A DNA stretch of 64,000 bases from Amycolatopsis alkalitolerans (GTDB lineage: Bacteria > Actinomycetota > Actinomycetes > Mycobacteriales > Pseudonocardiaceae). This document shows positions 3,948-25,177 of the stretch, in pieces (the stretch's first letter is position 1; the number at the start of each line of letters is the position of its first letter). The stretch is from positions 62,001-126,000 of the forward strand of contig NZ_VDFW01000010.1 of assembly GCF_006152065.1 (NCBI RefSeq). The letters run 5' to 3'. The notes below the pieces were generated by a model. The model was not told where the DNA came from. It worked only from the letters and a program-made list of their open reading frames with translations, and ran no database searches. Both the position numbers and the translations under genes were made by a program.

Positions 3948-6929
<2,982 letters not shown>

Positions 6930-6937
<8 letters not shown>

Positions 6938-9614: not shown

Positions 9615-9880
9615 TGGTGCACCTCCCCGATCCGGTAGGTGGCGAGGAACCGGTAGGTCCTCGTGTCGCGGATGGCGTTGAACCAGCGGCGGCAGCCCGC
9701 GGCGTGGCTCCAGCGTTCCGCGAAGGGACCCTGGGGGTTGTCCCGGTAGAACACGAACTCCGCCCAGTCCTGATCGGACAGTCCGTCGGGTTCGTCCGGA
9801 TAGGCGACGCCGGCCTGGCCGCCGTAGTGGAACTCGACCTCCTCGCGGGGGCCGCACCACGGGCAGTGGATGAGTTGCAT
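9611..9880 (-). CDS. soxD: Sarcosine oxidase delta subunit
   Basis: The 89-residue protein starts MQLIHCPWCGPREEVEF and carries CPWCG, conserved in the zinc-binding SoxD family, followed by an AGCRRWFNAIRDT segment typical of the C-terminus. It caps the heterotetramer. It lies 10 bases after soxB and overlaps soxA by 4 bases, so subunit ratios are probably set by translational coupling. Confidence 0.93.
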   Translation of the reverse strand: MQLIHCPWCGPREEVEFHYGGQAGVAYPDEPDGLSDQDWAEFVFYRDNPQGPFAERWSHAAGCRRWFNAIRDTRTYRFLATYRIGEVHQ

Positions 9881-9890
9881 GGCAGACCTC

Positions 9891-11120
9891 TCAGTGAGCC
9901 ACGGCGGCGGCGCCGTGCTCGTCGACGAGCGCGCCGGTGGCGAACCGGCCGAGACCGAACGGGGCGACGTACGGGTGCGGCTCGCCTTGCGCGATCGTGT
10001 GCGCGTAGCACCAGCCGATCCCGGGGGTCGCCTTGAACCCGCCGGTCCCCCAGCCGGCGTTGACGAACACGTTCTCGTACGGCGTGTGCCCGACGATGGG
10101 GCTCGCGTCCGGGGTGACGTCTACGATCCCCGCCCAGGTGCGCAGCAGGTGCGCGCGGGCGAACACCGGGAACAACTCGACCGCGGCGGCCATCTGCCGT
10201 TCGATGATGTGGAACGCCCCGCGCCGGCCGTAGCCGTTGTAGGCGTCGATACCGGCGCCCATCACCAGTTCGCCCTTGTGCGCCTGCGACACGTACACGT
10301 GCACCGCGTTCGACATCACGATCGTCGGGTGCACCGGCTCGAGCAGTTCGGATACCAGCGCCTGCAAGGGATGCGACTGCAGCGGCGCCCGGACGCCGAG
10401 ATGGTCCAGCAGCACCGAGGTGTGCCCGGCCGCGCACAGCGCGACCGTCCCGCACGCAATTTCGCCGCGCGTCGTGCGCACCCCGGTGACCCGGTCACCG
10501 TCCACAGTGAACCCGGTGACCTCGCAGTCCTGGACCAGATCGACGCCGGCCTCGTCCGCGCGGCGCGCGAACCCCCAGGCCACGTAGTCGTGTTTGGCGA
10601 TACCCGCGCGCGGCTGATACGTCGCGCCCTGAACCGGATAGCGGATCTGGGCGGACACGTTGACGATCGGGCAGATCTTGACGACCTCGTCCGGGCCGAG
10701 CCATTCGGCGTCGATCCCGTTGAGCTTGTTCGCCTCCACCCGCCGCACCGAGTCGCGCACGTCCTGCTCGGTGTGCGCAAGGTTCAGCACCCCGCGCTGG
10801 GAGAACAGGATCGGATACCCGAGATCGTCTTCCAGCCCCTCCCACAGCTTCAGGGAGTGCTCATAGATCGCCGCGGACTCGTCCCACAGGTAGTTCGAGC
10901 GGATCAGCGTGGTGTTGCGGGCCATGTTCCCGCCCGCGAGCCAGCCCCGCTCCAGGACGGCGACGTTGGTGATGCCGTGGTTGCGCGCCAGGTAGTACGC
11001 GGTGGCGAGACCGTGCCCACCGCCGCCGACGATCACCACGTCATAGGCCTTCGCCGGTTCCGGGTTACGCCACAGGAACCCGGGGTGTTCGTGCCCCTCG
11101 CGATCAATCGTGACGCCCAT
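9891..11120 (-). CDS. soxB: Sarcosine oxidase beta subunit
   Basis: The 409-residue flavoprotein has an FAD-binding motif [18 protein letters not shown] near residue 29 and, near the C-terminus, [15 protein letters not shown], both typical of SoxB (about 405 residues). It oxidises the N-methyl group of sarcosine. The ATG at 11120 was chosen because [14 protein letters not shown] aligns with normal SoxB length; upstream starts to 11240 lie inside the Rieske oxygenase gene. It overlaps that gene by 17 bases, tying sarcosine oxidation to betaine demethylation in one transcript. Confidence 0.93.
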
Positions 11121-12264
11121 CCCCGCCCCCAATCGCCGCCGCGACCCAATCCCGGAACGCGGCGATGTGGTGCTCGCTGGGTACCAGCACCCCGCCCGAG
11201 GCGTACGCACGCGAGGACATCGCGGGCTGGCACCGTTCACAGGCCGCGAAGTCCTGCTCGTTGACCCGGTGGAACAGGTCCACCGAACGCGAGAGGTCGG
11301 CGCCGCCGTCGATGACCTCTCGCGGGTAGAGCCAGTCGCATTCGACGATCGTCCGGTCGACCGCCATCGGGTACATCCGGTGGAAGATCACGTGATCGGG
11401 GACCAGGTTGAGAAACACCTGCGGGTTGACGGTGATCGCATAGTAGCGCCGGTCATGGGCCTCGTCGAGGCCGCCGAGCGTGCCGAACCCGGTGCCGCCG
11501 TCCACCGTGAACCCGGTGATCCCTTCGCCGAATTCCGCGCCGTGGCCGACGTAGTACTGCGCGGCGTAACCACCGGCGAACTCCGGGAGCACCTCGGTCA
11601 GCTCGGGATGAATGGTCGCGCAGTGGTAGCACTCCATGAAGTTCTCCACGATGAGCTTCCAGTTGGCTCGCACGTCGTAGACGATCCGGCGCCCCACGGC
11701 GAGTTCGTCGATGCCCCACCGGTCGATGAGGCCCTCGTCGCCGAGCCGGGCACTGACCACGGACCGCACCGTGTCCTCGAACGAAGGCGGTTCGCCGGCG
11801 AGGCACACCCAGACCGCGCCGAGCCATTCCCGCAGCGCGACCCCTACCAGCCCGTACTCGTCCCGGTTCACGTCCCCCATAGAGGTGAGGTTCGGTGCCG
11901 CGACGAGCGAACCGTCGAGACCGTAGGTCCAGGCGTGGTACGGGCACTGCAGGTTCCGGCGGATCGTGCCGGACTCGTCCACGCACAGCCGCGCGCCCCG
12001 GTGCCGGCAGACGTTGAGGAACGCGCGCAAGGCGCCGTCACGACCGCGCACGATCAGCACGCTTTCGCCGGCCACATCGACCTTGCGGAAACTGCCCGGC
12101 GTCGGCAGGTCGGTGCCGCGAGCCGCGGCGAACCAGCTGCGGCCGAAGATGCGGGACTGCTCGTGCCCGAAGATCGCGGGATCGGCGTAGTACGAACCCG
12201 GCAGCGTCGGGATGAGGCTCGGCGCGGGCTCCGGGTGCTGGTCGCGAACTTCGACAGAGCTCAC
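11104..12264 (-). CDS. gbcA: Rieske non-heme iron oxygenase, probable glycine betaine demethylase
   Basis: 386 residues. The Rieske 2Fe-2S motif uses C86/H88 (CRHRGA) and C107/H110 (CPYHAW). The catalytic domain has the mononuclear iron ligands H214 and H219 in [10 protein letters not shown]. This architecture matches GbcA, which removes one methyl from glycine betaine as formaldehyde, giving dimethylglycine. Stachydrine or carnitine oxygenases look similar, but here the downstream genes are sarcosine oxidase BDAG and dimethylglycine oxidase, which makes betaine the best substrate. Start is GTG at 12264 with AAAGGA upstream. Electrons probably come from the ferredoxin and reductase encoded just upstream instead of a fused GbcB-type reductase. 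Confidence 0.85.
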
Positions 12265-12289
12265 GATGGTCCTTTCGGCTACGGGAAGA

Positions 12290-13456
12290 TCAGGGCCGGG
12301 ACGCCAGCTCGCGGCGCCAGCGCCCGAACGAGCGGGCCCGGTCGATGGCCAGCACGGCGACCGGCTTGCCGGCCGTGTCGCGGTAGAGCGCGAGGAAGTC
12401 GAACGAACCTGGATCGCCTTCGATCACCTCGACCCGGGCGTCCGGCGTGCGGCGGCCGGCGAACTGGATGCGGTGGCCGTACTGGTCCGACCAGAAGTAG
12501 GGCACCTCGTGGTGCGGCGAGGGCGTGTGACTGGTGCCGAGCAGGGCCGAGACCGCGGCGACCGGTTGCTGCACGGCGTTGGTCCAGTGCTCCAGCCGCA
12601 GCGGGCCGCCCGGGTACGCGCGGGGGGAGCTCGCGCAGTCGCCGACGGCGACGACCTCGGGAATGCTTGTGACACACCGGGAATCGGTGATCACCCCGTC
12701 GCCGATGTCCACTCCGGACCCGGCCAGCCACCCCACGCAGGGCGCCGCGCCCACGCCGGCCACGACGACGTCGGCGGGCAGTTCGCGGCCGTCGGTCAGG
12801 CGGACGCCGGTGACGTGTGGCGAGCCGATCAGCCCGGCGACGCCGGCGCCGGCGTGCAGGCGGACCCCGCGGGTCGCGTGCAGCCGGGCACACACCATGC
12901 CCATCTCGGTGCCCAGCGCGTTCTGCAATGGCACCGGCGCGGCCTCGACGACATCGACCTCGATCCCCATCGCCGCCGCCGTCGAGGCGACCTCCGAGCC
13001 GATGAACCCCGCGCCGGCCACCACGAGCCGGGTTTCGCCCATCAGCGCCTTGCGTAGCGCGACCGCGTCGTCGAGGGTGCGAAGGGTGTACACGCCGTCA
13101 GGCACCGGCCCGGGCAGGCTCTTCGCCCGCGCCCCCGTCGCCAGCACGACACCGTCGGACACGATCCGCTCCCCGTCGTCGAGCACGACCGCGCGCCCGG
13201 CGGCGTCGAGGGCGACGGCGGAACGCCCGAGACGCCATTCGGCCAGCAGCGACTCGTCCTCGGGCGTCTCCAGCTTCAGGTCTTCCCCGGTGATCGTGCC
13301 GGCGAGGAACTCCTTCGACAGCGGCGGCCGGTCGTACGGTGCGTACCCCTCGTCGCCGATCACCACGATGCGTCCCCCGAAACCCCGGTCCCGCAGCGCC
13401 CTGGCCGCGGTAAGGCCCGCCAGGGAGGCGCCGACGACCGTGATCGCCCGTCTCAC
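12290..13456 (-). CDS. FAD-dependent NAD(P)H-ferredoxin reductase
   Basis: The 388-residue protein has two dinucleotide motifs: FAD (ITVVGASLAGLTAARAL, residues 5-21) and NAD (RLVVAGAGFIGSEVAS, near 150). It also has the ATG motif of the family (VVLATGAR) and VVAVGDCASSP for the FAD tail. This is the BphA4/CamA-type ferredoxin reductase family (about 400 residues). It should pass electrons from NADH to the adjacent Rieske ferredoxin and so to the betaine oxygenase. The GTG at 13456 overlaps the ferredoxin stop by 4 bases; longer readings up to 14926 run through the divergent IclR gene and are not real. Confidence 0.88.
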   Translation of the reverse strand: MRRAITVVGASLAGLTAARALRDRGFGGRIVVIGDEGYAPYDRPPLSKEFLAGTITGEDLKLETPEDESLLAEWRLGRSAVALDAAGRAVVLDDGERIVSDGVVLATGARAKSLPGPVPDGVYTLRTLDDAVALRKALMGETRLVVAGAGFIGSEVASTAAAMGIEVDVVEAAPVPLQNALGTEMGMVCARLHATRGVRLHAGAGVAGLIGSPHVTGVRLTDGRELPADVVVAGVGAAPCVGWLAGSGVDIGDGVITDSRCVTSIPEVVAVGDCASSPRAYPGGPLRLEHWTNAVQQPVAAVSALLGTSHTPSPHHEVPYFWSDQYGHRIQFAGRRTPDARVEVIEGDPGSFDFLALYRDTAGKPVAVLAIDRARSFGRWRRELASRP

Positions 13457-13788
13457 CAGGCCTCCCCCGCGACCGCTTCGGCGACCCGCGCCGGCACGTG
13501 GACGTAGACCTGCCCGTCGAGCACGGTCACCTCGTGCGTGCGGACCGGTTTCCGTGCCGGCGGGCCGCTGGGCCGCCCGGTGCGCAGATCGAAGCACGCG
13601 GCGTGCAGCGGGCATTCGATCTCGCATCCTTCGAGCCAGCCGTCGGACAGGGAGGCGTCCTGATGGGTGCAGGTGTCGTCGATCGCGTAGAAGACGCCAT
13701 CCACGTTGAAGACCGCGACCGCCACCTCGGCCTGCACCCGGACCGATCCTCCAGCGGGGATGTCCGACACGGCGCCAACTGAGATCAT
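13453..13788 (-). CDS. Rieske-type [2Fe-2S] ferredoxin
   Basis: The 111-residue protein has cluster ligands C40/H42 (CTHQDASLSDG) and C59/H62 (CPLHAACF). It is a BphF-like small Rieske ferredoxin, first gene of the betaine operon. It likely shuttles electrons between the reductase and the oxygenase. Two adjacent ATGs occur at 13791 and 13788; the second is preferred since CAGGAG then has a 5-base spacing. A nitrite reductase small-subunit-like protein is the main lookalike, but no such partner is present. Confidence 0.88.
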   Translation of the reverse strand: MISVGAVSDIPAGGSVRVQAEVAVAVFNVDGVFYAIDDTCTHQDASLSDGWLEGCEIECPLHAACFDLRTGRPSGPPARKPVRTHEVTVLDGQVYVHVPARVAEAVAGEAW

Positions 13789-13791
13789 CAT

Positions 13792-14770: not shown

Positions 14771-15565
14771 ATGGCGATGGAAGGCTCCGAGGGAACGGGG
14801 CGGGCCGTCGGTACGCAGGCGATCAGCCGTGCGTTCGCGGTGCTGCACCTGGTGCGCGACCACGGCGCCGAACTCGGGGTGGGCCAGATCGCCAAGGAAC
14901 TGCAGCTGAATCTCAGTACGGCGCACCGGATCGTACGCGCGCTCGTGGGCGAAGGCTACCTGGCGCAGAACGAGACCAACGAGCGGTACTACCTCGGCAC
15001 CGGCGCGTTGCTGCTGGGCCAGGCGGCGTCACGCAATTTCCGGCTGGACGTCGTCCATCCCGTCCTGGCGCGGCTGGCCGAGCGCACCGGCGAATCGGTC
15101 AATCTGGGCGTGCTCAACGGGACTTACGCGGTGGTGGTCGAGCGCATCGAGTCACCGCAGCCGCTGCGGTTCACCCAGCCGCCCGGCACCAGGGCGCCCT
15201 TGCACGCCTCCGCGATGGGCAAGGCATTGCTGGCCTTCAACGAGCATCTGGAGGCCAGCTACCTCGCGTCGGCGGATCATCTCGTGGGTATCCATCCGAA
15301 CACGCACACGACCGAAGGCGGCCTGCGTGACGACCTCGCGGCGACCCGTGCCCGGGGCTGGAGCACCGACGACGAGGAGTCCTACCTCGCGGTGCGGTGC
15401 GTCGGCGCCCCCATCCAGGACGGTCCCGGCCACAGCCGGGCGGCGATCGCGGTGCAGGCACCGGCCCTGCGGATGCCTCCCGAGCGGTTCGCCGAGGTCG
15501 GCCCCGAAGTCGTCCGGGCCGCCAAAGAGATCGCCGCGCTGCTGCCGCCGGGCCACGCGTTCTGA
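14771..15565 (+). CDS. IclR-family transcriptional regulator
   Basis: 264 residues with an N-terminal winged helix (QIAKELQLNLSTAHRIVRAL) and a C-terminal ligand-binding domain (APLHASAMGKALLAF). It is the same length as the IclR protein at 25183-25977, and both share blocks such as TGESVNL and PLRFTQP, so the two are close paralogues. A palindrome that recurs upstream of the neighbouring catabolic operons precedes this gene. Convergent with the amidase gene. Likely controls the carboxylase/BKACE operon; the effector is unknown. Confidence 0.88.
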   Translation: MAMEGSEGTGRAVGTQAISRAFAVLHLVRDHGAELGVGQIAKELQLNLSTAHRIVRALVGEGYLAQNETNERYYLGTGALLLGQAASRNFRLDVVHPVLARLAERTGESVNLGVLNGTYAVVVERIESPQPLRFTQPPGTRAPLHASAMGKALLAFNEHLEASYLASADHLVGIHPNTHTTEGGLRDDLAATRARGWSTDDEESYLAVRCVGAPIQDGPGHSRAAIAVQAPALRMPPERFAEVGPEVVRAAKEIAALLPPGHAF

Positions 15566-15578
15566 GTCGTCCGGAACC

Positions 15579-17174
15579 TCACGGCGAACACACCGGCGGT
15601 TCGGGGAGCGGTGCCCGGGCCGCTTCGAGCGCCGCCGCGACGTAGCAGAGCCGGGCGTCCTCGCCCGGTGGCGCGGCGAACTGCACCCCGATCGGCAGCC
15701 CAGCGGTGTCCTGACCGAAGGGCAGGGTCAGCGCCGGCACACCGGTGATGCTGAACGGTGCCGTATAGCGCGGTAATGCCGTCCCGATCGGCTCAGCCCG
15801 GCCGTCGAGGTCGATGGTGGCGGAGCCCAGCTTCGGTGCGGTGCACGGCAGGGTGGGAACGATCAAGACGTCCACGGTCCCCCACAGCAGGCCGAGCTGC
15901 CGACAGGCCGCGGCACGGAGCCGTTGCGCGGTGAGGTACTCCCCGGCGAGGACGAAGCGGCCGGCCTCCAACCGGGCACGCACTCCGTCCTCGTACCCGG
16001 CCGAGGCCCGCAACATCGGCTCGTGCCAGGCCGATCCTTCGGCGTAGGCGATCACCCGGTTGACCGCGGTGAGCAGATCGGCGTCGGGCAGGGTGACCTC
16101 CAGCACCGTGGCACCCTGGCGCTCCAATTCCCTTACCGCGGCGCGAAATCCGTGCACGACCGGCGCGGTCGAGCCCGCCAGCCATGCCTGCGGCACGCCG
16201 ACCCGGATGTCCGCCAGCCCGCCGTGCGCGCCGGCGCGGGCGGCCCGCTCGGCGCGTGTCCCGGCCAGCACGTCCAGCATCATCGCCGCGTCACGGACGG
16301 TCCGGGCGAGCGGGCCGACGTGGTCGAGAGTCCAGGCGAGCGGATACGTGCCCGTCACCGGCACCAGGCCGTACGTCGGCTTGAGGCCGACCACGCCACA
16401 GCAGGCGGCCGGTATCCGCACCGAACCGCCGGTGTCGGTGCCCAGCGCGGCGGCCGCCGTCCCGCAAGCGACCGCGGCCGCCGCTCCCCCGCTCGATCCC
16501 CCCGCCATGTGCGCGAGGTGGTAAGGGTTGCGTACGGGGCCGTAGTGCTCGTTCTCCGCGGTGACCCCCGCCGCGAACTCGTGCGTGTTGAGCTTGCCGA
16601 GCAGTGATGCGCCGGCCTGGCGCAGCAGTCGCCAGGCCTCGGCGTCGCGCGCCGGGACGCGGGTGCTCAGCAGCCGCGATCCGCAGGTGGTACGGATACC
16701 GGCGGTGTCGATCAGGTCCTTCAGGCCGATCGGCACCCCGGCCAGCGGCCCGGTCGTCCCGCCGTGCCACTCGGCGGCAACCGTGAGGTAGGCGTTGACG
16801 GCGGGATCGAGCTCGGCGATCCGGCGCACGAACGCTCGATGTACCTCGGCCGCGTCGAGCTCACCGGCACGGACCAGAGCGGCCAGATCCGCGACCCGGG
16901 TCGCCGTGAGCCGCCCGTCGTCCGGCAGCGCCGGTGACGGCTCCCCTGGTGGCGCGGGCAACCTGAGCGGCCGCCAGCTTCGCGGCCCGCCGGCCAGGAC
17001 CGGGTCGAACCCGGGTACCGGCGGATACGGTTCCAGCTCCGCCGGATCGAGGCCCGCCAGCCGGTCACGTAGCGGGGCGAGCAGCTCGTCGGCGGCGTCC
17101 AGCAGGTGAGCGTCCAGCTCCGGGGCCATCACCCGCATCGCCGTGGCGGTCACCCGTAGCGGGCCGCCGATCAC
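15579..17174 (-). CDS. Amidase-signature family hydrolase
   Basis: 531 residues. The amidase signature region holds the Ser-cisSer-Lys triad: Lys in PIGLKDLIDT, the cis-Ser in MAGGSSGGAAAAVA and the nucleophile Ser in GTDTGGSVRIPAA. The C-terminal FSITGVPALTLPFG is also conserved. About 80 residues before the core form a helical extension. Such enzymes hydrolyse amides or act on carboxylated urea-like substrates. The GTG at 17174 overlaps the BKACE stop by 4 bases; ATG at 17136 is an alternative. As last gene of the biotin carboxylase operon it probably releases ammonia or an acid from the pathway substrate, which is unknown. Confidence 0.87.
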   Translation of the reverse strand: MIGGPLRVTATAMRVMAPELDAHLLDAADELLAPLRDRLAGLDPAELEPYPPVPGFDPVLAGGPRSWRPLRLPAPPGEPSPALPDDGRLTATRVADLAALVRAGELDAAEVHRAFVRRIAELDPAVNAYLTVAAEWHGGTTGPLAGVPIGLKDLIDTAGIRTTCGSRLLSTRVPARDAEAWRLLRQAGASLLGKLNTHEFAAGVTAENEHYGPVRNPYHLAHMAGGSSGGAAAAVACGTAAAALGTDTGGSVRIPAACCGVVGLKPTYGLVPVTGTYPLAWTLDHVGPLARTVRDAAMMLDVLAGTRAERAARAGAHGGLADIRVGVPQAWLAGSTAPVVHGFRAAVRELERQGATVLEVTLPDADLLTAVNRVIAYAEGSAWHEPMLRASAGYEDGVRARLEAGRFVLAGEYLTAQRLRAAACRQLGLLWGTVDVLIVPTLPCTAPKLGSATIDLDGRAEPIGTALPRYTAPFSITGVPALTLPFGQDTAGLPIGVQFAAPPGEDARLCYVAAALEAARAPLPEPPVCSP

Positions 17175-18010
17175 GGGTTGGCGGGCACGGGCAGCCGCAG
17201 CAGCGACCGGGTTTCGCCGGGGGCCGCGGGGTGCCGACCGTGTTCCCAGCAGACCTTGGCGAGCCGGCTGACCAGCTCGGCGTTGGACGCGGCGAGCCGG
17301 CCCTTCTCGAAGTAGATGTTGTCCTCCAGCCCGGTGCGCACGTGGCCGCCGCGCGCCAGCGCCCAGCGGTTCGCGTCCAGCTGGTGGCGGCCGATGGCGG
17401 CGCACGTCCAGGTCGCGCCGGGTAGCACGTCGGCCAGCTCGGACACGAACGTGTCCACCAGCGGCTCACGGGCGGGCAACGCGTTCTTGATACCCATCAC
17501 CAGCTGCACGTGTGCGGGGGTGACCAGCAAGCCACGGCGCGCCAGGTCGGCCGCGGCGTACAGCATCGCGAAGTCGAACACCTCGATCTCCGGCTTGATA
17601 CCCAGGTCGCGCATCCGCGTCGCGGCGCGCTCCACCAGATCCGGTGCGTTGTCGTAGATCCGGCCGGGAAAGTTCACCGATCCGGTGGCCAGTGACGCCA
17701 TCTCCGGGCGCAGTTCGAGACACGAGAACCGCTCTTCGGCCGAACGGCCACGCGCGCCGGTGGACATCTGGACCACCATCTGCGGGCAGGCCTCCCGGAT
17801 GCCGTCGCGTACCGCGGCGTAGCGAGCCGGGTCGGCGCTGGGCTGCTGCTCGTCATCACGGACATGCACGTGGCATACCGTCGCGCCCGCCTCGAAGCAT
17901 TCGACGGCCGATGCGATCTGCTCCTCGGGCGTCACGGGAACGGCCGGGTTGTCGGATTTGGTCGGGACGGCCCCGGTGATGGCGACGGTGATGATAGCGG
18001 GCGTGGTCAT
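17171..18010 (-). CDS. Beta-keto acid cleavage enzyme (BKACE)
   Basis: The 279-residue protein starts MTTPAIITVAITGAVPTK and has HVHVR (H47 and H49, zinc ligands), QMSTG and GLEDNIYF, all diagnostic of BKACE (PF05853, formerly DUF849). Known members condense a beta-keto acid with acetyl-CoA to give acetoacetate and a CoA ester; the founding member acts on 3-keto-5-aminohexanoate in lysine fermentation. Different members take different beta-keto acids and the substrate cannot be read here. It overlaps the biotin carboxylase gene (ATGA) and the amidase gene (GTGA), placing it in the middle of the pathway. Confidence 0.92.
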   Translation of the reverse strand: MTTPAIITVAITGAVPTKSDNPAVPVTPEEQIASAVECFEAGATVCHVHVRDDEQQPSADPARYAAVRDGIREACPQMVVQMSTGARGRSAEERFSCLELRPEMASLATGSVNFPGRIYDNAPDLVERAATRMRDLGIKPEIEVFDFAMLYAAADLARRGLLVTPAHVQLVMGIKNALPAREPLVDTFVSELADVLPGATWTCAAIGRHQLDANRWALARGGHVRTGLEDNIYFEKGRLAASNAELVSRLAKVCWEHGRHPAAPGETRSLLRLPVPANP

Positions 18011-19341
18011 GCCAGTGCCTCCGTGAGATAGCGCGTCGTGTAGGTACCTGCAACGACTTCCGGCTGCGTCAGCAGCCACTCGTGCAGTCCGACCGTGCTG
18101 TGCACGCCGTCGACACGGAACTCCGACAGTGCTCGCCGGGCCCGGCGCAGCACCTCGTCGCGATCCGCTCCGTGCACGATCAGCTTGCCCAGCAGGGAGT
18201 CGTAGTGGGGGGAGATCACGGCACCGGGCCGGCAGTGGGTGTCGACACGAATACCGGGACCGGCCGGCGGGTCGAACACCGTCAGCGTGCCCGGTGCCGG
18301 CACGAAACCGCGCTTCCAGTCCTCGGCGTTGATGCGGAACTCCATCGCGTGGCCGCGCCGTGGTGGCGGATCGGCTTGCAACGCCTCACCGGCCGCGATC
18401 CGCAGTTGCCAGGCCACCAGGTCCAATCCGGTCAGTACCTCGGTGAGCGGATGCTCAACCTGGATGCGGGTGTTCATCTCGATGAAGTAGACGGCGCCGG
18501 TGTCCATGTCCAGGACGAACTCGACGGTGCCGGCACCCACGTAGCCCACCGACTCGGCGGCGCGGACCGCCAGGCCGGCCAGATCCTGTCGCCGGCCGGC
18601 ATCCAGCGCCGGCGAGGGCGCCTCCTCGACCACCTTCTGATGGCGGCGCTGCATCGAGCAGTCCCGCTCACCGAGCTCGATCACGCGCCCGTGCCGGTCG
18701 GCCAGCACCTGCACTTCCACGTGGCGCACCCGCTGGAGGTACTTCTCCACGTAGATTCCGTCGTCGCCGAAGGCGCCGGCCGCCTCCTGCCGGGCCAGGG
18801 TGAAGCACTCCCGCAGCTCATCCTCGTCACCGGCGACCCGCATTCCCTTGCCGCCGCCGCCCGCGCGAGCCTTGAGCAGCACCGGATAACCACATTCGGC
18901 GGCCGCGGCGACCGCCTCGTCCACATTGGACACCGCGTCGGGCGACCCCGGCACCACGGGCACGTCCACCTTGGCGACCGCCTTGCGCGCCATGGCCTTG
19001 TCGCCCATCACCGCGATGACCTCGGCGGGCGGCCCGACGAAGGTCGCGCCGGCCTCCTCGACGGAGGCTGCGAACCCGGGATTCTCCGACAGGAAACCAT
19101 ATCCTGGATGTATCGCGTCACAGCCGGTGGCCTCCGCGACGTGCAGCAGCAGATCTTGCCGCAGGTAGCTGGCACCGGCCGGCGCCGGCCCCAGGCATAC
19201 CGCCCGGTCTGCCAGCTCCGTGTGCAACGCGCCCCGGTCGGCGTCGGAGTAGACGGCCACGGTCGGCACCCCGAGATCGCGGGCCGCGCGGATGACCCGT
19301 ACCGCGATCTCGCCGCGGTTCGCCACGAGCAGCCGCCGCAT
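18007..19341 (-). CDS. Biotin carboxylase subunit (AccC type)
   Basis: 444 residues, the usual AccC length. It has the N-terminal LLVANRGEIAVRVIRAARDLG, the ATP-grasp glycine loop KARAGGGGKGM, HVEVQVLAD and EMNTRIQVEHPLTE. It carboxylates the biotin of the carrier protein using ATP and bicarbonate. Its partners are the carrier at 20828 and a PycB/OadA-like transferase at 19341, not AccA/AccD, so acetyl-CoA is not the likely acceptor. It shares one base with the transferase stop (TGATG). Confidence 0.92.
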   Translation of the reverse strand: MRRLLVANRGEIAVRVIRAARDLGVPTVAVYSDADRGALHTELADRAVCLGPAPAGASYLRQDLLLHVAEATGCDAIHPGYGFLSENPGFAASVEEAGATFVGPPAEVIAVMGDKAMARKAVAKVDVPVVPGSPDAVSNVDEAVAAAAECGYPVLLKARAGGGGKGMRVAGDEDELRECFTLARQEAAGAFGDDGIYVEKYLQRVRHVEVQVLADRHGRVIELGERDCSMQRRHQKVVEEAPSPALDAGRRQDLAGLAVRAAESVGYVGAGTVEFVLDMDTGAVYFIEMNTRIQVEHPLTEVLTGLDLVAWQLRIAAGEALQADPPPRRGHAMEFRINAEDWKRGFVPAPGTLTVFDPPAGPGIRVDTHCRPGAVISPHYDSLLGKLIVHGADRDEVLRRARRALSEFRVDGVHSTVGLHEWLLTQPEVVAGTYTTRYLTEALA

Positions 19342-20831
19342 CAGCGCCTACCGTGGTCGATGTGCAAGCGGAAACCGGGCCGGCTGACCGTGATCCGGCC
19401 GGCCCGCGGCTGCTCGGCGATTCCGCGCAGGAGCTCAAGGAGCGGGGTGGTCGCGGACAGCGGTGCGTCCGCGACGCGGCGTACGGACCGGGCGGCCAGC
19501 AGATCCGCCAGCTCCCGGTCGCTGTAGAAGGCCGCCAGCAGCAGGTCGTCGTCGGAGTCGAACGGGCCGCGCTCCGCGCGCAGCGCGGGCAGTGCCGGAT
19601 CGATGATCTCGCCCGGCCGGCCGGTGAGCGCCTCGGTTCCGGGTGGCGCCTCGTCCAGCACCCGGTCGACGATCTTCGGCAGCGCCGGCGCGGCCAGCCG
19701 GCCGTAGTGGCCCAGCACGTATCGGCGGACCTCGTCGGGGATGGCGCTGTACCGCTCCCCCTGCGTCACGTTCAGGATGGCCTGCACGACGACGAACTGC
19801 GCGAAGGGACTCACCAGGATCGGGTAGCCGAGGTCGACGCGAACCTGCTCCACCTCTTCCAGGATCTCCGGCTCGCGCTCGGACATGCCCATTCGCGCCA
19901 GATCGGCGCGCAGGTTGGAGATCATCCCGCCGGGCACCTGGTGGCGATAGAGGGCGGGGTCGTACCGGTGCGGGGTGGCGGGCGGGAATCCGTACCGCCG
20001 CGCGATCCCGGTGAAATAGTCGGCCATCTCGTCCAAATCGGACAGTGACAGATCGGTCACGAAGCCCTCGCGCTCGAGATGCCGGACGCAGTACTCGGTC
20101 GGCGGCAACGAGGCCCCGCTGGCCAGCGGGTGCGACGCGGTGTGCAACACGTCCACGCCGAGCGGAACGGCCTCCAGATAGCTGGGTTCGGCCATCCCGG
20201 ACAGTGAGTGTGAGTGCAGTTCCAGCGGCAGGTCACCGACCGCGGCCCGCACCGCGGGAACGAGCGTGCGCACCCGGTCCGGGGTGAGCAGTCCGGACGG
20301 GTCCTTGATGAACACGGAGTCGGCCCCGAGGCGGACCAGATCCTCCGCGACGGACACGTAATAGGCGTCCGTGTGCACCGGCGAGAGCGTGTACACCATC
20401 CCGGCGCACACGTGCAGCCCTTCCTGCTGTCCCACCCGGACACTCAGTTCCAGGTTGCGCACGTCGTTCAGCGCGTCGTAGACGGTGATCCGGCGCATGC
20501 CGTTCGCCCGGATCCGCCGCACGGTCAGCGCCACCACGTCATCGGCGAAGAACCGGAAGGTGAACAGGCTCTGCCCCCGGGTCATGATGTCCACCGGCGT
20601 GCGCCGGGTCCGCTGGGCGACCAGCCGCATCCGTTCCCACGGGTCCTCGTGCAGGAAGCGAACGCACACGTCGAACACCGCGCCGCCCTCGAGATTGATC
20701 CAGTCGAAGCCCATCTCGTCCATCCGCGGCATGAACGGCAGGATCATCCCGTTGGTCATCCGCGTGGCCCACAGCGACTGGTGCCCGTCGCGGGTGGTGA
20801 CGTCGACGAACCCGACTCGCCGCCCGGTCAT
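19341..20831 (-). CDS. Biotin-dependent carboxyltransferase, PycB/OadA-like
   Basis: 496 residues. The HMGL-like TIM barrel shows the metal site of pyruvate carboxylase transferases: D15 in TTRDGHQSLWATRM, the Lys expected to be carbamylated at K176 (FIKDPSG), and H206/H208 in LELHSHS. VPGGMISNL holds the Ser/Thr that shuttles the proton. LGYPILVSPFAQ follows. There is no C-terminal biotin domain; that sits in the separate carrier. Known relatives move CO2 to or from pyruvate/oxaloacetate or 2-oxoglutarate. The operon context (BKACE, amidase, transporter) suggests another keto substrate that becomes a beta-keto acid (inference). The ATG at 20831 is in an ATGA overlap with the carrier gene. 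Confidence 0.86.
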   Translation of the reverse strand: MTGRRVGFVDVTTRDGHQSLWATRMTNGMILPFMPRMDEMGFDWINLEGGAVFDVCVRFLHEDPWERMRLVAQRTRRTPVDIMTRGQSLFTFRFFADDVVALTVRRIRANGMRRITVYDALNDVRNLELSVRVGQQEGLHVCAGMVYTLSPVHTDAYYVSVAEDLVRLGADSVFIKDPSGLLTPDRVRTLVPAVRAAVGDLPLELHSHSLSGMAEPSYLEAVPLGVDVLHTASHPLASGASLPPTEYCVRHLEREGFVTDLSLSDLDEMADYFTGIARRYGFPPATPHRYDPALYRHQVPGGMISNLRADLARMGMSEREPEILEEVEQVRVDLGYPILVSPFAQFVVVQAILNVTQGERYSAIPDEVRRYVLGHYGRLAAPALPKIVDRVLDEAPPGTEALTGRPGEIIDPALPALRAERGPFDSDDDLLLAAFYSDRELADLLAARSVRRVADAPLSATTPLLELLRGIAEQPRAGRITVSRPGFRLHIDHGRR

Positions 20832-21286
20832 CGCGGCTCGATCCAGATCAGCGGCTGCCCGTACTCCACCAGGCAGCCGTCCTCGGCGTCGATGCGGACG
20901 ACCGTTCCGGCCACCTCGGCCTTCAGCTCGGTGAACAGCTTCATGACCTCGATCAGAGCGACGGTCTGCCCTTTCGCCACTTGCTCGCCCACGCTCGCGC
21001 ACGGTGGCTCACCCGGCGCGGGCGAGCGGTAGAACGTGCCGGTCATCGGAGAGGACACCGCGACGGCCGCGTCCGGTTCCCCGGGCTGTTCGGCCGGTTC
21101 CACGGGCCGCGCCGGTTCGGTGGGCTCCGGTGCCGCCGCGGGCCCGGACGCGACCGGTGGATCGGCCGTACCGGCGCGGCACACGCTGATCCTGAAGTCG
21201 CCGCACTCCAGTTCGAACGTGTCGCAGTCGAGTTGCCTGATCAGCCCGAGAACGTCGCCGACCTCAGTGAAGGACAGTTGATCCAC
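20828..21286 (-). CDS. Biotin carboxyl carrier protein (AccB type)
   Basis: 152 residues. The N-terminal helix (FTEVGDVLGLIRQLDCDTFEL) is AccB-like, then a Pro/Ala/Glu-rich linker (about 42-75), then the biotinyl domain with the target K116 in LIEVMKLFTEL. The GTG start at 21286 has GAAAGG upstream; longer open frames belong to the preceding transporter. It connects the carboxylase and transferase of this operon. Confidence 0.93.
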   Translation of the reverse strand: MDQLSFTEVGDVLGLIRQLDCDTFELECGDFRISVCRAGTADPPVASGPAAAPEPTEPARPVEPAEQPGEPDAAVAVSSPMTGTFYRSPAPGEPPCASVGEQVAKGQTVALIEVMKLFTELKAEVAGTVVRIDAEDGCLVEYGQPLIWIEPR

Positions 21287-21291
21287 GGACG

Positions 21292-22803
21292 CTACCTTTC
21301 GCTCGCCGTTACCGTGCCATCGGTGCCGAGCCCAGAGTTCGCGGTCGCACCACCGGACCCGGCCCGCGGCTTTGTCGCCGTGCCCAGCTCCTCCATGTTG
21401 CGACCGGCCGTTTCCTGACCGAAGAAGATCATCGGAACGACCAGCAGGACCATGACCACGGCCGCGCAGATGAACACGGTCGCCACGCCCCAGCTCGCGA
21501 ACATCGCCGGCAGCAGGTAGATCAGCAGGCCACCGGTGAGAGCCCGGCTGACCATCTCGCCGGTCGAGGTGCCCAGGCCGCGCAGCCGGGTCGGGTACTG
21601 CTCGGCCAGGTACATCTTGGGGATGGAGAAGCTGCCGAGGCCGAACCACGCGACCAGGACACCGGCCACGATCACGACGCTGATGCCCAGCGCCTTGTAC
21701 GCGGGCAACACGACCATGCCGATGGCCGCCACCAGGATGTAGATGGCGAAGATCCGCTTGCGGCCGAACCGGTCGGCCCACCGTCCCTGGAAGAACACCC
21801 CGAAGGCCGAGATGAACATCATGATCGCGGTGTAGAGCAGGCTCGTGCTCGAGGTCGCGTGCAACAGCCCTTTGAAGATCGTCGGCGCGTAGGTCAGCAT
21901 CGTGTACCAGATCACGAACGACGAGGTGAGCGCGGCGTAGGCGATCAGGCTCCGGGACAGGTAGGGCCGCGCCAGCAGGGTGCGCATCCGGACGTCCCGG
22001 CTCGCCGTGGTGGTCAGCACCTGCAGTGCGCCGGAGTCGACGATCGTGGTGTCGTGCGGGAGCCGGGCTTCGGTCTCGATGCGCTCCACGAGCCGCCGCA
22101 CCTTGTCCCGGTCGGCGGGCCGGCCGCGCAGTTCGGCTCGTTTGAGCAGGAACCGGGGTGTCTCCGGCACCCAGATGATCAGGGCGGGGATCAGCAGCAA
22201 CGGGAAGCCACCGAGCAGCAACGGGACTCGCCACGACCACTCGACCGGGAACGCGGTGACCACCCAGATGCCGACCAGCGCCGGGAGCGTGTACCCGCCG
22301 TTGAGCACCCATTGCGCGTAGCCCATCACCGTGCCACGCAGCCGTTTCGAAACGAGCTCGGAGATGATCATGTACGGCACGGGGAACAGCGCACCCTCCC
22401 CCAGGCCGGCGATCACCCGCAGGGCGAACAGGGTCCAGAAGTCGTGCGCGGCCGCGCCGAGCATCGTGAACAGCGCGAACTCGGCCGTTCCGGCCAGCAG
22501 CACGGCCTTGCGGCCGAACTTGTCGGCCAGCCGGCCGGCCGGAACGATCCCGATGACCAGGCCGATGGTCCCGGAGGCACCGAGCAGCCCGGTCTGCATC
22601 GAGTCCAGGTGCCAGTGCGGTTTGAGGATCACGATCAGGGTGCTGACGATCCCGATGTCGAACGATTCGATCAGCCAGACCAGGATCAGCACGCCGATAC
22701 CGATCTTCAGCGCGCGCGTGACCGGGGCACGATCGAGGCGGCTCAACAGGTTCGCGTCGTCGCGGAGCCGTGAAGAGGCCATCGCGTCTGGGGGTTCTGC
22801 CAT
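21292..22803 (-). CDS. MFS transporter (sugar-porter / AAHS type)
   Basis: 503 residues with twelve expected membrane segments. It has the MFS loop motifs GRLADKFGRKAVL near residue 90 and GRWADRFGRKRIF near 340, plus PETPRFLLKR after segment 6, as in the SP and aromatic-acid families. First gene of the biotin carboxylase/BKACE operon, 5 bases before the carrier gene. It probably imports the pathway substrate with protons. The palindrome at 22861-22875 is 57 bases upstream of its ATG. Confidence 0.88.
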   Translation of the reverse strand: MAEPPDAMASSRLRDDANLLSRLDRAPVTRALKIGIGVLILVWLIESFDIGIVSTLIVILKPHWHLDSMQTGLLGASGTIGLVIGIVPAGRLADKFGRKAVLLAGTAEFALFTMLGAAAHDFWTLFALRVIAGLGEGALFPVPYMIISELVSKRLRGTVMGYAQWVLNGGYTLPALVGIWVVTAFPVEWSWRVPLLLGGFPLLLIPALIIWVPETPRFLLKRAELRGRPADRDKVRRLVERIETEARLPHDTTIVDSGALQVLTTTASRDVRMRTLLARPYLSRSLIAYAALTSSFVIWYTMLTYAPTIFKGLLHATSSTSLLYTAIMMFISAFGVFFQGRWADRFGRKRIFAIYILVAAIGMVVLPAYKALGISVVIVAGVLVAWFGLGSFSIPKMYLAEQYPTRLRGLGTSTGEMVSRALTGGLLIYLLPAMFASWGVATVFICAAVVMVLLVVPMIFFGQETAGRNMEELGTATKPRAGSGGATANSGLGTDGTVTASER

Positions 22804-22969: not shown

Positions 22970-23722
22970 ATGTTCGATGAACGGTCATCCGCACCGACCC
23001 ATCCGCCCGCGACGTGGAGCCTCGCCGGCCGGACGATGGTCGTCACCGGCGGTTCCCGCGGCATCGGCGAGGCCGTGGTGCGCCTCGCCCGCGAGGCCGG
23101 GGCCCGCGTCGCCGTCCTGGACCTGACGCCCTCGTCCGCCGGCGACTGCTTCGTGGAGTGCGACGTGACCGACACCGAAGCGGTGAACGCGGCGTTCAAC
23201 GAGGTCCGGCGCACCCTCGGGCCGGTCGACAGCCTGGTGAACAACGCGGGCATCGCACCGCCGGGCCGATTCGAGCAACTCACCGACGCGTCGTGGGAGG
23301 CGACGCTCGCCGTCGATCTCACCGGCGTCTTCCGGTGCGTCCGATCGGCACTGCCCCAGTTGCGGGAGCGCGGACGGGGCTCGGTGATCAACGTCGGCTC
23401 CATCGCCGGACGGCACCGCAGCTTCACCGCGAGCGCCGCCTACGCCGCGGCCAAGGGCGGCGTGATCGCCCTGACCAGGCAACTCGCGCACGAGTTCGCG
23501 GCCGAGGGCGTGCGGGTCAACTGCGTGTGTCCCGGCTTGGTGGCCACCGACATCATCCGGCGCAACGTCACCGAGGAGCAGCGAGCCCAGCTCGCGGCCG
23601 CCATTCCGCTGCGCCGCCTCGCGCGGCCCGACGAAGTGGCCACCACGATCTGCTTCCTGGCGACGGACGCCGCCAGCTACGTCACCGGAGCCGTGCTCGA
23701 CGTCAACGGCGGCCTCTACTGA
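22970..23722 (+). CDS. Short-chain dehydrogenase/reductase
   Basis: 250 residues. Classical SDR: TGGSRGIGEAV for the cofactor, VNNAGIAPP, and the triad Ser (NVGSIAG), Tyr and Lys (SAAYAAAKGG). Ends VTGAVLDVNGGLY as in FabG-like enzymes. VLDLT at the end of strand 2 favours NAD over NADP. Start ATG 22970 has GGAG five bases away; a GTG at 22913 with GGGAG is a real alternative adding 19 residues. It likely oxidises an alcohol to a ketone for the neighbouring pathway (inference from context). Confidence 0.87.
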   Translation: MFDERSSAPTHPPATWSLAGRTMVVTGGSRGIGEAVVRLAREAGARVAVLDLTPSSAGDCFVECDVTDTEAVNAAFNEVRRTLGPVDSLVNNAGIAPPGRFEQLTDASWEATLAVDLTGVFRCVRSALPQLRERGRGSVINVGSIAGRHRSFTASAAYAAAKGGVIALTRQLAHEFAAEGVRVNCVCPGLVATDIIRRNVTEEQRAQLAAAIPLRRLARPDEVATTICFLATDAASYVTGAVLDVNGGLY

Positions 23723-23815: not shown

Positions 23816-25177
23816 ATGCGCGAGCCGCTGGCCGGCCAACCTAGCCAGGACGTCCCGGTCTCCAAGGTCGCGCTCGCCAGCGCGATCGGTACGACCATCG
23901 AGTGGTATGACTTCTTCCTCTACGGCACGGCCGCGAGCCTGGCCTTCAACCACCTGTTCTTTCCCAGCTTCAGCCCGGCGGCCGGCGTGATCGCCGCCTT
24001 CGCCACGTTCGCCGTCGGCTACCTCTCGCGGCCGATCGGCAGTGTGGTGTTCGGGCATTTCGGCGACCGTCTGGGGCGCAAGAAGATGCTCGTGTCCACC
24101 CTGTTCGTGATGGGCCTGGCGACCTTCGCGATCGGCCTGTTGCCGACCTACGGGCAGATCGGCGTCTGGGCGCCCATCCTGCTGGTGCTGATGCGGGCGC
24201 TGCAGGGGATCGGCATCGGCGGGGAATACGGCGGCGCGGTGGTGATGGCGGTGGAGTACGCCCCTCCCGGGCGCCGGGGCTTCTTCGGAAGCTGGCCCCA
24301 GGTCGGCGTGCCGGCCGGGCTGCTGCTGGCATCCGGGGTGTTCGCCGCGCTCTCCGGCCTGCTTCCCAAGGCCGCGTTCACCTCCTACGGCTGGCGGATC
24401 GGCTTCCTGCTGAGTGCCCTGCTGGTGGCGGTCGGCCTCTACGTGCGGCTGAAGGTGCTGGAAACACCGGCGTTCACCGCGATGCGCAACCGGCAGGAAG
24501 AAGCGAAGCTGCCCTTCGCCGCGTTGCTCCGGGGCTCCACCAAGGAGTTCTGGCTGAGCCTCGGCACCCGCTGGGTCGAGGGGCTGACCTACAACGCCTA
24601 CTCGGTGCTGGTCGTTTCGTTCGTGGCCAACCAGCTGCACCTGTCCGGCGGCATCGCGCTCACCGGCGTGATCATCGCTTCCGCACTCGGGATCGTGCTC
24701 ACCCCGCTGTACGGCGCGCTAAGCGATCGGGTCGGCCGCAAGACGGTGTACACCGCGGGGGTGCTGAGCGTGCTGGTGCTGACGTTCCCCTCGTTCTGGG
24801 CGATCCAGACCGGCCAGCGAGCGTGGATCTGGCTCGGCATCGTCATCCCGTTCGGCATCGGGTACTTCGCCATCTACGCGCCGCTGTCCACCTTCTGGTC
24901 GGAACTGTTCGACACCCGCTACCGCTACACCGGGGTGGGCGCGGTCTACCAGTTCTCCGGCGTCTACGCCAGCGGGCTGACTCCGGTGATCGGTGTGACG
25001 CTGTTCGCCGCCGATGGCGGGCGCCCCTGGTATTTCGCGGCGTACATGGTCGTGGTGGCCGTGATCAGCCTGGTCGCCACCGCATTCCTGCCGGAGACCA
25101 ACCGTCGCGACATCATGCCCGGCGCGGACGGCCGAACCGCAACGCGTGCCGAAGGTGCGCTCGAGCCGGACCGGTGA
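23816..25177 (+). CDS. MHS-family metabolite:H+ symporter
   Basis: 453 residues. The start of segment 1, IGTTIEWYDFFLYGTAA, and GHFGDRLGRKKML plus RALQGIGIGGEYGG are signatures of the MHS family (ShiA, KgtP, ProP). Such carriers import organic acids or osmolytes with protons. ATG 23816 is chosen for GGGAGG eight bases before it; an upstream ATG at 23792 lies inside the palindrome. The substrate is probably shared with the carboxylase/BKACE block, since the operator is the same. Confidence 0.9.
   Translation: MREPLAGQPSQDVPVSKVALASAIGTTIEWYDFFLYGTAASLAFNHLFFPSFSPAAGVIAAFATFAVGYLSRPIGSVVFGHFGDRLGRKKMLVSTLFVMGLATFAIGLLPTYGQIGVWAPILLVLMRALQGIGIGGEYGGAVVMAVEYAPPGRRGFFGSWPQVGVPAGLLLASGVFAALSGLLPKAAFTSYGWRIGFLLSALLVAVGLYVRLKVLETPAFTAMRNRQEEAKLPFAALLRGSTKEFWLSLGTRWVEGLTYNAYSVLVVSFVANQLHLSGGIALTGVIIASALGIVLTPLYGALSDRVGRKTVYTAGVLSVLVLTFPSFWAIQTGQRAWIWLGIVIPFGIGYFAIYAPLSTFWSELFDTRYRYTGVGAVYQFSGVYASGLTPVIGVTLFAADGGRPWYFAAYMVVVAVISLVATAFLPETNRRDIMPGADGRTATRAEGALEPDR

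Follow-up and report, generated by a model that had tools for sequence, protein, structure and literature searches.

A Biotin-Dependent Carboxylase–BKACE Operon of Amycolatopsis alkalitolerans and Its Possible Role in Organosulfonate Degradation

Introduction

What might a soil-type actinobacterium carboxylate with an enzyme whose genes are coupled to those of a BKACE and an amidase? Members of the BKACE family convert a beta-keto acid and acetyl-CoA into acetoacetate and an acyl-CoA, and the gene set considered here is widely conserved. We analysed a window of 64,000 nucleotides (the whole stretch of DNA under study) from Amycolatopsis alkalitolerans, together with related loci and genomes.

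A Coupled Six-Gene Operon

Six minus-strand genes (22803–15579) encode an MFS transporter, BCCP, an OadA/PycB-type carboxyltransferase (CT), a biotin carboxylase (BC), a BKACE and an amidase. All of them were found as named in the original prediction, in that coupled order, and the divergent SDR that it placed beside the operon is a real gene as well. The features are as follows:

14771..15565, plus strand, IclR-family regulator next to the operon's 3' end
15579..17174, minus strand, amidase-signature hydrolase (PF01425) with an N-terminal extension of ~90 residues
17171..18010, minus strand, BKACE (PF05853, NF053568)
18007..19341, minus strand, BC of the AccC type (PRK08591, 620 against a cut-off of 597)
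19341..20831, minus strand, CT of the OadA/PycB type (PF02436, PYC_OADA, and PF00682, HMGL-like; PRK09282)
20828..21286, minus strand, BCCP with an EVMK biotin motif (TIGR00531)
21292..22803, minus strand, MFS transporter (PF07690/PF00083), aromatic acid:H+/sugar-porter superfamily, under the subfamily cut-offs
22970..23722, plus strand, divergent SDR (profile match)
23816..25177, plus strand, MFS transporter of the metabolite:H+ symporter family (profile match)

About 5 nt separate the MFS stop from the GTG of BCCP, and the last five genes overlap one another by 1–4 bases each (4 bases at BCCP/CT, BC/BKACE and BKACE/amidase, 1 base at CT/BC), if the BCCP and amidase start codons are as assumed. 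The folds of the operon proteins are clear from their sequences. With BC, CT and a BCCP bearing the biotin motif encoded together, the operon specifies a three-part biotin-dependent carboxylase, BCCP scoring barely above the TIGR00531 cut-off (115.4 against 115.2 bits). The MFS protein is likely the substrate importer, and genes whose products are 59–65% identical to it lie near the carboxylase–BKACE module in three other loci (L040, L043, L044). Ten alphaproteobacterial loci, all from a single CT clade, have a symporter gene 52–56% identical to the one at 23816..25177 directly 3' of BKACE. IclR genes turn up repeatedly near module loci.

The Carboxyltransferase and the Pyruvate Question

The CT combines PF02436 and PF00682 domains with the Asp/His/His site and K176, whose carbamylation is predicted, which assigns it to the OadA/PycB type. 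The metal ligands expected at the outset (D15, K176, H206, H208) are all present and invariant among the four aligned sequences. Against the domain model PRK09282, named "pyruvate carboxylase subunit B", the CT scored 453 with a cut-off of 402, while it fell below the equivalog cut-offs of oadA (414 against 756) and pyruv_carbox (190 against 1114).

Could this be a split anaplerotic pyruvate carboxylase that has nothing to do with the BKACE and the amidase encoded beside it? The PRK09282 match and the retention of R14, D15, Q18, R85, K176, H206 and H208 would agree with such a role. Yet the motifs (C/A)WGGAT and LLRGQNLLGY of solved pyruvate/oxaloacetate-type enzymes, which we take to line the pyruvate site, were not found in sequence alignments of the CT clade, whose members carry E/V-GGAV and TRGQSLFTF instead. 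Moreover, a 1138-aa frame elsewhere in the same genome resembles a single-chain pyruvate carboxylase. Because of this second frame and the changed substrate-side motifs, a housekeeping pyruvate carboxylase appears unlikely, and we rejected that identity. The anaplerotic reading also leaves the cross-phylum co-conservation with BKACE (see below) without explanation; we regard it as exceedingly improbable. In a MAFFT alignment with the organism's own pyruvate carboxylase-like protein, the GG motif is preceded by a gap of two residues; we dropped this gap as evidence because HMMER aligns the same stretch gap-free with solved OadA-type enzymes, and we claim only the substitutions. Overall, the CT shares its family, its catalytic and metal residues and its biotin chemistry with the split pyruvate carboxylase PYCA/PYCB, oxaloacetate decarboxylase alpha and transcarboxylase 5S, but differs from them in the altered motifs, the linkage to BKACE and the presence of that separate gene.

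Pairing of the Carboxylase with BKACE

The BKACE scored 325 against PF05853 (cut-off 24.8) and 426 against NF053568, "3-oxoadipate:acetyl-CoA acetyltransferase" (cut-off 350). Its residues H47, H49, E143, R225, E229 and D230 are invariant in an alignment of 46 sequences; they correspond to the His-x-His, the Glu-Asp pair, the Arg and the Glu that presumably bind the metal and act in catalysis, as in Kce, the 3-keto-5-aminohexanoate cleavage enzyme. From the alignments of this study the rows of L079 (A3; stop within the stretch), L044 and L089 were omitted. By sequence the protein belongs with Kce, PF05853 and NF053568, and the same type of reaction with acetyl-CoA is expected, whereas the substrate proposed for it below would be carboxylase-made and sulfonate-bearing.

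Related CT loci were found by a short-peptide-pattern scan and the best 80 of 137 were examined, so that the following counts are no census. Of these 80 loci, 42 have a same-type BKACE 3' of the carboxyltransferase gene and in its orientation, 33 of them within 200 bp; the partial matches in L099, L052, L064 and L073 are counted as linked, and L087, L114 and L116, with BKACE on the opposite strand ~8 kb off, as unlinked. Actinobacterial loci have the order BCCP-CT-BC-BKACE, whereas BC-CT-BKACE prevails among the proteobacterial loci. Since the carboxylase and BKACE stay paired despite these differing orders, ketone carboxylation followed by cleavage of the beta-keto acid with acetyl-CoA is supported as the best reading of the gene sets. 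The co-conservation check named in the original prediction does not refute the pairing; of the two substrates that the prediction allowed, a ketone or a 2-oxoacid, the 2-oxoacid gained no support. The 3-hydroxybutyrate dehydrogenase gene directly 3' of BKACE in L085 fits a release of acetoacetate. An SDR-superfamily match above 50 bits is present in 29 of the 42 BKACE-linked loci (from the same best 80 of 137).

Sulfonate Genes in the Neighbourhood

What had gone unnoticed at the start is the organosulfonate context of these loci, formed by SauS, Xsc, SauCD-like and TauE-type genes. SauS (acylating sulfoacetaldehyde dehydrogenase) acts specifically on sulfoacetyl-CoA, and Xsc on sulfoacetaldehyde; the sulfite specificity of TauE/SafE exporters, whose genes occur in module neighbourhoods, is not strict. 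A SauS gene over the cut-off is found nearby in nine of the 42 BKACE-linked loci (best 80 of 137; L040, L077, L088, L092, L094, L095, L102, L113 and, at the edge, L065). In the gammaproteobacterial L088, L094 and L113 it lies directly 3' of BKACE (704, 730 and 721 bits against a cut-off of 600). Xsc is on the module contig in several of these loci, as in the one-contig clusters of Acidocella L092 with L146, and L095, and in L065, where xsc-sauS-sauCD-like genes share that contig. In Amycolatopsis acididurans, the genes sauS-sauCD-like-MFS-BCCP-CT-BC-BKACE-amidase run in one direction, with xsc alongside.

At the genome level, SauS passed the cut-off in 38 of the 42 BKACE-linked genomes (from the best 80 of 137 CT loci) versus 5 of 150 relatives (carriers included) and 14 of 289 Alphaproteobacteria (centre genome included), and Xsc in 38 of the same 42 versus 12 of the 150 relatives, these twelve including all four full-module genomes (the window's own, G018, G045, G073); the background figures may be somewhat low because the best 5–10 first-look candidates per genome were scored. 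The tallies of linked and unlinked genomes were counted by hand and leave out L078; L096 and L112 contribute no separate genome, and the samples overlap (L040 = G018, L041 = G073, L042 = G045). A profile search left SauS unmatched in two module genomes (L042, L044), its matches in L107 and L111 fall below the cut-off at contig ends, and Xsc is absent or under the cut-off in the genomes of L108, L073, L107 and L061. In the window's own genome, contig C45 carries SauS (816 against 600), Xsc (1061 against 676), SauCD-like and Pta-like genes.

Genomes whose CT has no adjacent same-type BKACE, taken in two sets, have Xsc in 13 of 20 and 3 of 3 and SauS in 12 of 20 and 4 of 4. Comparing linked with BKACE-less loci thus failed to isolate BKACE, and because the BKACE-less genomes often have these genes too, the sulfonate link, judged by gene content, belongs to the carboxylase clade and not to BKACE alone. 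One might then suppose that carboxylase-BKACE and SauCD-SauS-Xsc serve separate compounds and share genomes just because their hosts are metabolically broad: the SauS and Xsc genes of the window's genome lie on another contig than the operon, and G057 and G070 have SauS without a close BKACE orthologue (the search covered BKACE). We consider this very improbable, given the direct BKACE-SauS adjacency in the three gammaproteobacterial loci and the clusters that share one contig in Acidocella, L065 and A. acididurans.

A Proposed Route

From the genes with their families and coupling, and from the way in which carboxylase, BKACE, SauS and Xsc occur together, we favour, with some reserve, an operon for a biotin-dependent methyl-ketone carboxylase and a BKACE. 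Their joint task would be to open a short ketone bearing a sulfonate, with sulfoacetone (2-oxopropane-1-sulfonate) as the likeliest candidate; its sulfonate nature is suggested by gene context. The SDR may oxidize 2-hydroxypropane-1-sulfonate to sulfoacetone, whose methyl group BCCP, CT and BC would carboxylate with bicarbonate and ATP, giving 3-oxo-4-sulfobutanoate. BKACE would then convert this acid and acetyl-CoA into acetoacetate and sulfoacetyl-CoA. By the known functions of families present in the genome, SauS would reduce sulfoacetyl-CoA to sulfoacetaldehyde, Xsc would form acetyl phosphate and sulfite from it, and Pta would yield acetyl-CoA, Xsc and Pta being the downstream enzymes of sulfoacetate degradation too. 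That this amounts to an undescribed, widespread aerobic C3-sulfonate pathway, from sulfoacetone or 2-hydroxypropane-1-sulfonate to SauS-Xsc desulfonation, strikes us as slightly better than an even bet. With SauCD-like genes near several modules, sulfoacetate rather than the BKACE product could feed SauS.

The main rival substrate is levulinate (4-oxopentanoate), our initial hypothesis, drawn from the NF053568 name and a maleylacetate-reductase-like neighbour. The carboxylase would make 3-oxoadipate, BKACE with acetyl-CoA would release succinyl-CoA and acetoacetate, with ATP recovered by a succinyl-CoA-ligase-like pair. Besides the NF053568 match over the cut-off, it is favoured by BKACE genes (69–72% identical) of L033 and L036, in stretches without a carboxylase match, that adjoin an iron-type dehydrogenase. 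The dehydrogenase of L036 matches solved maleylacetate reductases, enzymes that form 3-oxoadipate. In L041 and L042, moreover, BKACE has a short-chain-fatty-acid-transporter-like gene on its 3' side (Pfam search: L042). We demoted levulinate once SauS, SauCD-like, Xsc and TauE-type genes had been recognised among the neighbours. It accounts neither for SauS directly 3' of BKACE nor for the TauE-type genes, nor for SauS and Xsc each in 38 of 42 module genomes (from the best 80 of 137), and the L041 genome (G073) itself also carries an xsc-pta-like-sauS-sauCD-like cluster. It now seems rather improbable.

The same architecture might instead serve another small anionic methyl ketone (a sulfonate, phosphonate or carboxylate), perhaps depending on the clade, an option that we hold improbable. 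The transporters vary by lineage (MFS, TctA-type, NMT1-like ABC, SCFA), and five Rokubacteria and one Chloroflexi genomes tested lack Xsc and SauS over the cut-off; in some of their loci the CT neighbours include CoA-ligase-like (L051, L054, L057, L104) and thiolase-like (L051, L057; by eye) genes. Nevertheless, SauS and Xsc occur in most BKACE-linked carriers.

Relation to Described Systems

One of the closest precedents for the sulfoacetone scheme is HpeCBA/XccBCA of Rhodococcus and Aromatoleum, a three-part biotin carboxylase of the phospho-phenylethanone pathway. There, too, a ketone is first carboxylated at its acetyl group, and the resulting beta-keto acid then undergoes C-C cleavage; the HpeCBA pathway is aerobic in Rhodococcus and the ketone is aromatic and phosphorylated, whereas the one proposed here is short and sulfonated (PMC9618137). 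As to the original suggestion of an undescribed carboxylation-driven cleavage, carboxylation before ketone cleavage is known from HpeCBA (PMC9618137). The families are known, while their combination is undescribed as far as our searches reach. Sulfoacetate degradation by SauCD/SauS uses the same enzyme families and also converges on sulfoacetyl-CoA and sulfoacetaldehyde, but there sulfoacetyl-CoA comes from sulfoacetate and not, as proposed here, from BKACE cleavage (PMC12890257). Among the papers listed by searches of the open-access literature, none brings together the carboxylation of ketones, cleavage by BKACE and the breakdown of organosulfonates, none contains the names sulfoacetone or 2-oxopropane-1-sulfonate, and none treats levulinate with a carboxylase and 3-oxoadipate.

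If the scheme is true, these three processes would become connected, and the BKACE subfamily currently named after 3-oxoadipate would gain a biological role. The annotation "pyruvate carboxylase subunit B" in marine and soil bacteria would be corrected. The sulfur cycle would gain a new C3 sulfonate substrate and an undescribed route of organic-sulfur recycling, implying an unrecognised environmental pool of sulfoacetone or 2-hydroxypropane-1-sulfonate.

The Amidase

The sulfoacetone scheme assigns the amidase no step. It had been expected to remove an amide before or after the other reactions, and nothing that we found places it on either side of any step; comparison with PDB and NCBIfam indicated no specific substrate, the best NCBIfam, AtzE, being matched below both cut-offs (334 against 461 and 318 against 426). 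A similar amidase gene occupies the same position in L040 (56%) and L044 (49%).

The operon and its carboxylase

The module is a run of six genes:

22803 to 15579, minus strand: MFS transporter, biotin carrier (BCCP), OadA/PycB-type carboxyltransferase (CT), biotin carboxylase (BC), beta-keto acid cleavage protein (BKACE) and amidase-signature hydrolase, in this order

The gene order from transporter to amidase is that of the original prediction. About 5 nt separate the MFS stop from the BCCP start; at each remaining junction, the neighbouring genes share 1 or 4 bases. In the alignment, the window CT retains R14, D15, Q18, R85, K176, H206 and H208, including all four metal ligands previously read from the sequence (D15, K176, H206 and H208). 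Aligned with solved pyruvate/oxaloacetate-type enzymes, it combines an unchanged catalytic set with substrate-side motifs unlike theirs, and its own genome (6.78 Mb, 84 contigs) holds a second CT-like frame of 1138 aa (31% to the window CT) that reads like a single-chain pyruvate carboxylase. It is unlikely that the operon carboxylase acts on pyruvate.

Pairing of carboxylase and BKACE

Querying 150 genomes (the own genome and relatives) with the BKACE returned five close orthologues beyond the window's own (69-73%). Three of the five genomes (G018, G045 and G073) carry BCCP-CT-BC-BKACE, and G018, from the same genus as the window's genome, has all six operon genes. In the stretches read from G065 and G020, BKACE occurs without a carboxylase match and adjoins an iron-type dehydrogenase; that of G020 has maleylacetate reductases of known structure as matches.

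Scanning the genome collection for sequence patterns of the CT alignment gave 137 relatives, and our locus counts rest on the best 80 of these 137. The predicted coupling of carboxylase and BKACE does extend across genomes: 42 of these 80 loci have a same-type BKACE 3' of CT on the same strand. In 33 of them, no more than 200 bp separate it from the CT match, five actinobacterial loci have BC in between, and the remaining four comprise L064 (488 bp), L072 and L090 (about 3.3 kb) and L099 (a partial match). In 58 of the 80, BC and CT share a strand and lie within 300 bp of each other. Actinobacterial loci are ordered BCCP-CT-BC-BKACE and most proteobacterial ones BC-CT-BKACE, usually with a divergent BCCP; on the CT tree, BKACE-linked CTs are scattered, the label changing 14 times. 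With gene orders differing and linked CTs so dispersed, the pairing has outlived rearrangement. The two form a conserved pair.

As for the amidase, L040 and L044 each have a similar gene at the equivalent position, and seven proteobacterial loci (L071, L085, L093, L097, L099, L106 and L108) hold more distant amidases together with SDR and TauE-type genes, six of the seven also having TctA-type genes. Such recurrence suggests that the association is probably not random, with no substrate indicated. In L044, from a metagenome genome, CT (9001-10395) is broken by a stop, reflecting either a broken gene or an assembly error.

Sulfonate genes beside the module

A recurrent neighbour is a CoA-acylating aldehyde dehydrogenase, assigned by NCBIfam to the acylating sulfoacetaldehyde dehydrogenase SauS (772 and 793 bits vs a cut-off of 600). 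It occurs in nine of the best 80 of 137 loci, every one BKACE-linked. In L088, L094 and L113, it lies immediately 3' of BKACE (704, 730 and 721 bits); in L065, it is clipped at the locus edge and whole on the contig, where xsc (sulfoacetaldehyde acetyltransferase), sauS and sauCD-like genes (resembling those of sulfoacetate degradation) are oriented as CT and BKACE. On one Acidocella contig (L092 with L146), xsc, pta-like, sauS and sucCD-like (SauCD-type) genes precede SDR, IclR, BC, CT, BKACE, BCCP, MFS and TauE genes. In Amycolatopsis acididurans, a single direction is shared by sauS, sauCD-like, MFS, BCCP, CT, BC, BKACE and amidase genes, adjoined by xsc and a pta-like gene. The TauE/SafE-type gene cluster, two members of which were tested with Pfam, is represented in 17 of the best 80 of 137 loci, 12 of them BKACE-linked.

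In the own genome, contig C45 holds, inside about 14 kb, xsc and sauS together with a sauCD-like pair and one pta-like gene; therefore, a lower pathway is present there, though not linked to the operon. Beside these sauSCD-like genes stands an iron-type alcohol dehydrogenase (L140:11723-13063) weakly like the sulfoacetaldehyde reductase SarD (221 bits, below 700). A molybdopterin oxidoreductase with an FeS/NrfD protein adjoins the operon in L035 (2836-7335; Pfam), and a pair that resembles it by eye adjoins sauSCD-like genes in L144 (10536-14915); such pairs are candidate sulfite-oxidising enzymes.

Genome-wide distribution of SauS and Xsc

Of the 42 BKACE-linked genomes, 38 have SauS above its cut-off; L042 and L044 gave no match and L107 and L111 only contig-end pieces that score below it. 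The background is five of 150 genomes among the window's kin, three being module carriers, and 14 of 289 among evenly drawn Alphaproteobacteria, including the centre genome, a carrier (the other 13 being counted irrespective of the module). A Fisher test of 38/42 vs 13/288 gives p ~4e-34, to be taken as a guide only because the genomes are related and scoring depth is unequal, module genomes being mostly scored in full and background searches covering 5-10 candidates per genome. Xsc likewise exceeds its cut-off in 38 of the 42, the exceptions being L108, L073, L107 and L061, the last with a contig-end piece. It occurs in 12 of the 150 kin genomes, and all four full-module genomes of that set are positive (p ~2e-5).

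Of 20 genomes in which no such BKACE adjoins the CT, 13 have Xsc and 12 SauS; in four further genomes of this kind (L087, L097, L106 and L114), SauS is found in 4/4 and Xsc in 3/3 tested. The sulfonate link therefore belongs to the whole CT clade, and the counts speak against a simple reading. Among the CT genomes tested, neither protein was above its cut-off in five Rokubacteria, one Chloroflexi and L109 (with a sub-cut-off Xsc piece); the L103 genome has Xsc and lacks SauS. It is possible that some clades use another anionic methyl ketone.

Proposed route through sulfoacetone

Enzymes of the BKACE family catalyse R-CO-CH2-COO- + acetyl-CoA -> R-CO-SCoA + acetoacetate. On the premise that sulfoacetyl-CoA, on which SauS acts, is this R-CO-SCoA, R would be -CH2-SO3-, the beta-keto acid 3-oxo-4-sulfobutanoate and the ketone sulfoacetone. 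An SDR would then oxidise 2-hydroxypropane-1-sulfonate to sulfoacetone, the carboxylase would carboxylate its methyl group to 3-oxo-4-sulfobutanoate, and BKACE would convert this and acetyl-CoA to acetoacetate and sulfoacetyl-CoA, to be taken up by SauS. SDR-superfamily matches occur in 29 of the 42 BKACE-linked loci. A 3-hydroxybutyrate dehydrogenase (TIGR01963, 332 > 307 bits) immediately 3' of BKACE in L085 fits acetoacetate as co-product, and lactate-racemase-like genes in three CT loci (BKACE-linked L105 and L117, the latter by Pfam, and unlinked L048) fit a chiral 2-hydroxy compound.

The main rival is a route from levulinate via 3-oxoadipate to succinyl-CoA. It accounts for the 3-oxoadipate-type name of the BKACE model (NF053568), the maleylacetate-reductase-like neighbour of BKACE and, in L041 and L042, the short-chain-fatty-acid transporter. 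It leaves the SauS, Xsc and TauE genes unaccounted for.

With respect to known systems, HpeCBA is described as carboxylating a ketone before cleavage, as we propose for the window operon; the next steps proposed there are a CoA synthetase and a hydrolase (PMC9618137). SauCD-SauS is described for sulfoacetate (PMC12890257). In the open-access literature, sulfoacetone was not found under the names used; papers that matched contain sulfoacetyl-CoA or 2-hydroxypropane-1-sulfonate, the second of these in four that concern materials or surfactants, judging by title. No paper there combined sulfoacetaldehyde acetyltransferase with biotin carboxylase, or either of them with beta-keto acid cleavage, and none of the matches listed joined sulfonate with carboxylase or BKACE. 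Known enzyme families form a combination undescribed in that literature, acting on a probably new substrate.

Other variants

Rokubacterial loci L051, L054, L057 and L104, with L048, fall in the same CT clade, have no adjacent BKACE and show neither SauS nor Xsc above cut-off. Four Rokubacteria loci have an ADP-forming-CoA-ligase-like gene near CT and two a gene that looks thiolase-like by eye, perhaps another way of cleaving the carboxylated ketone. Five carboxylase loci without BKACE (L078, L086, L089, L098 and L109) show a family III CoA-transferase, a Rieske ferredoxin-like gene, an SDR and, by eye, a TauE-like gene, possibly a CoA-transferase variant of the pathway. A second BKACE, distinct from the first and about 300 aa long, stands beside SDR and TctA-type transporter genes near the carboxylase in L087, L088, L094, L113, L114 and L116; it fell below all cut-offs in the two loci tested.

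A separate cluster at 3951-13791 of the window encodes a flavoprotein with weak similarity to trimethylamine N-oxide demethylase and a Rieske oxygenase resembling GbcA, neither of which reaches its cut-off, together with a ferredoxin and a reductase, and perhaps serves methylated-amine or betaine catabolism.
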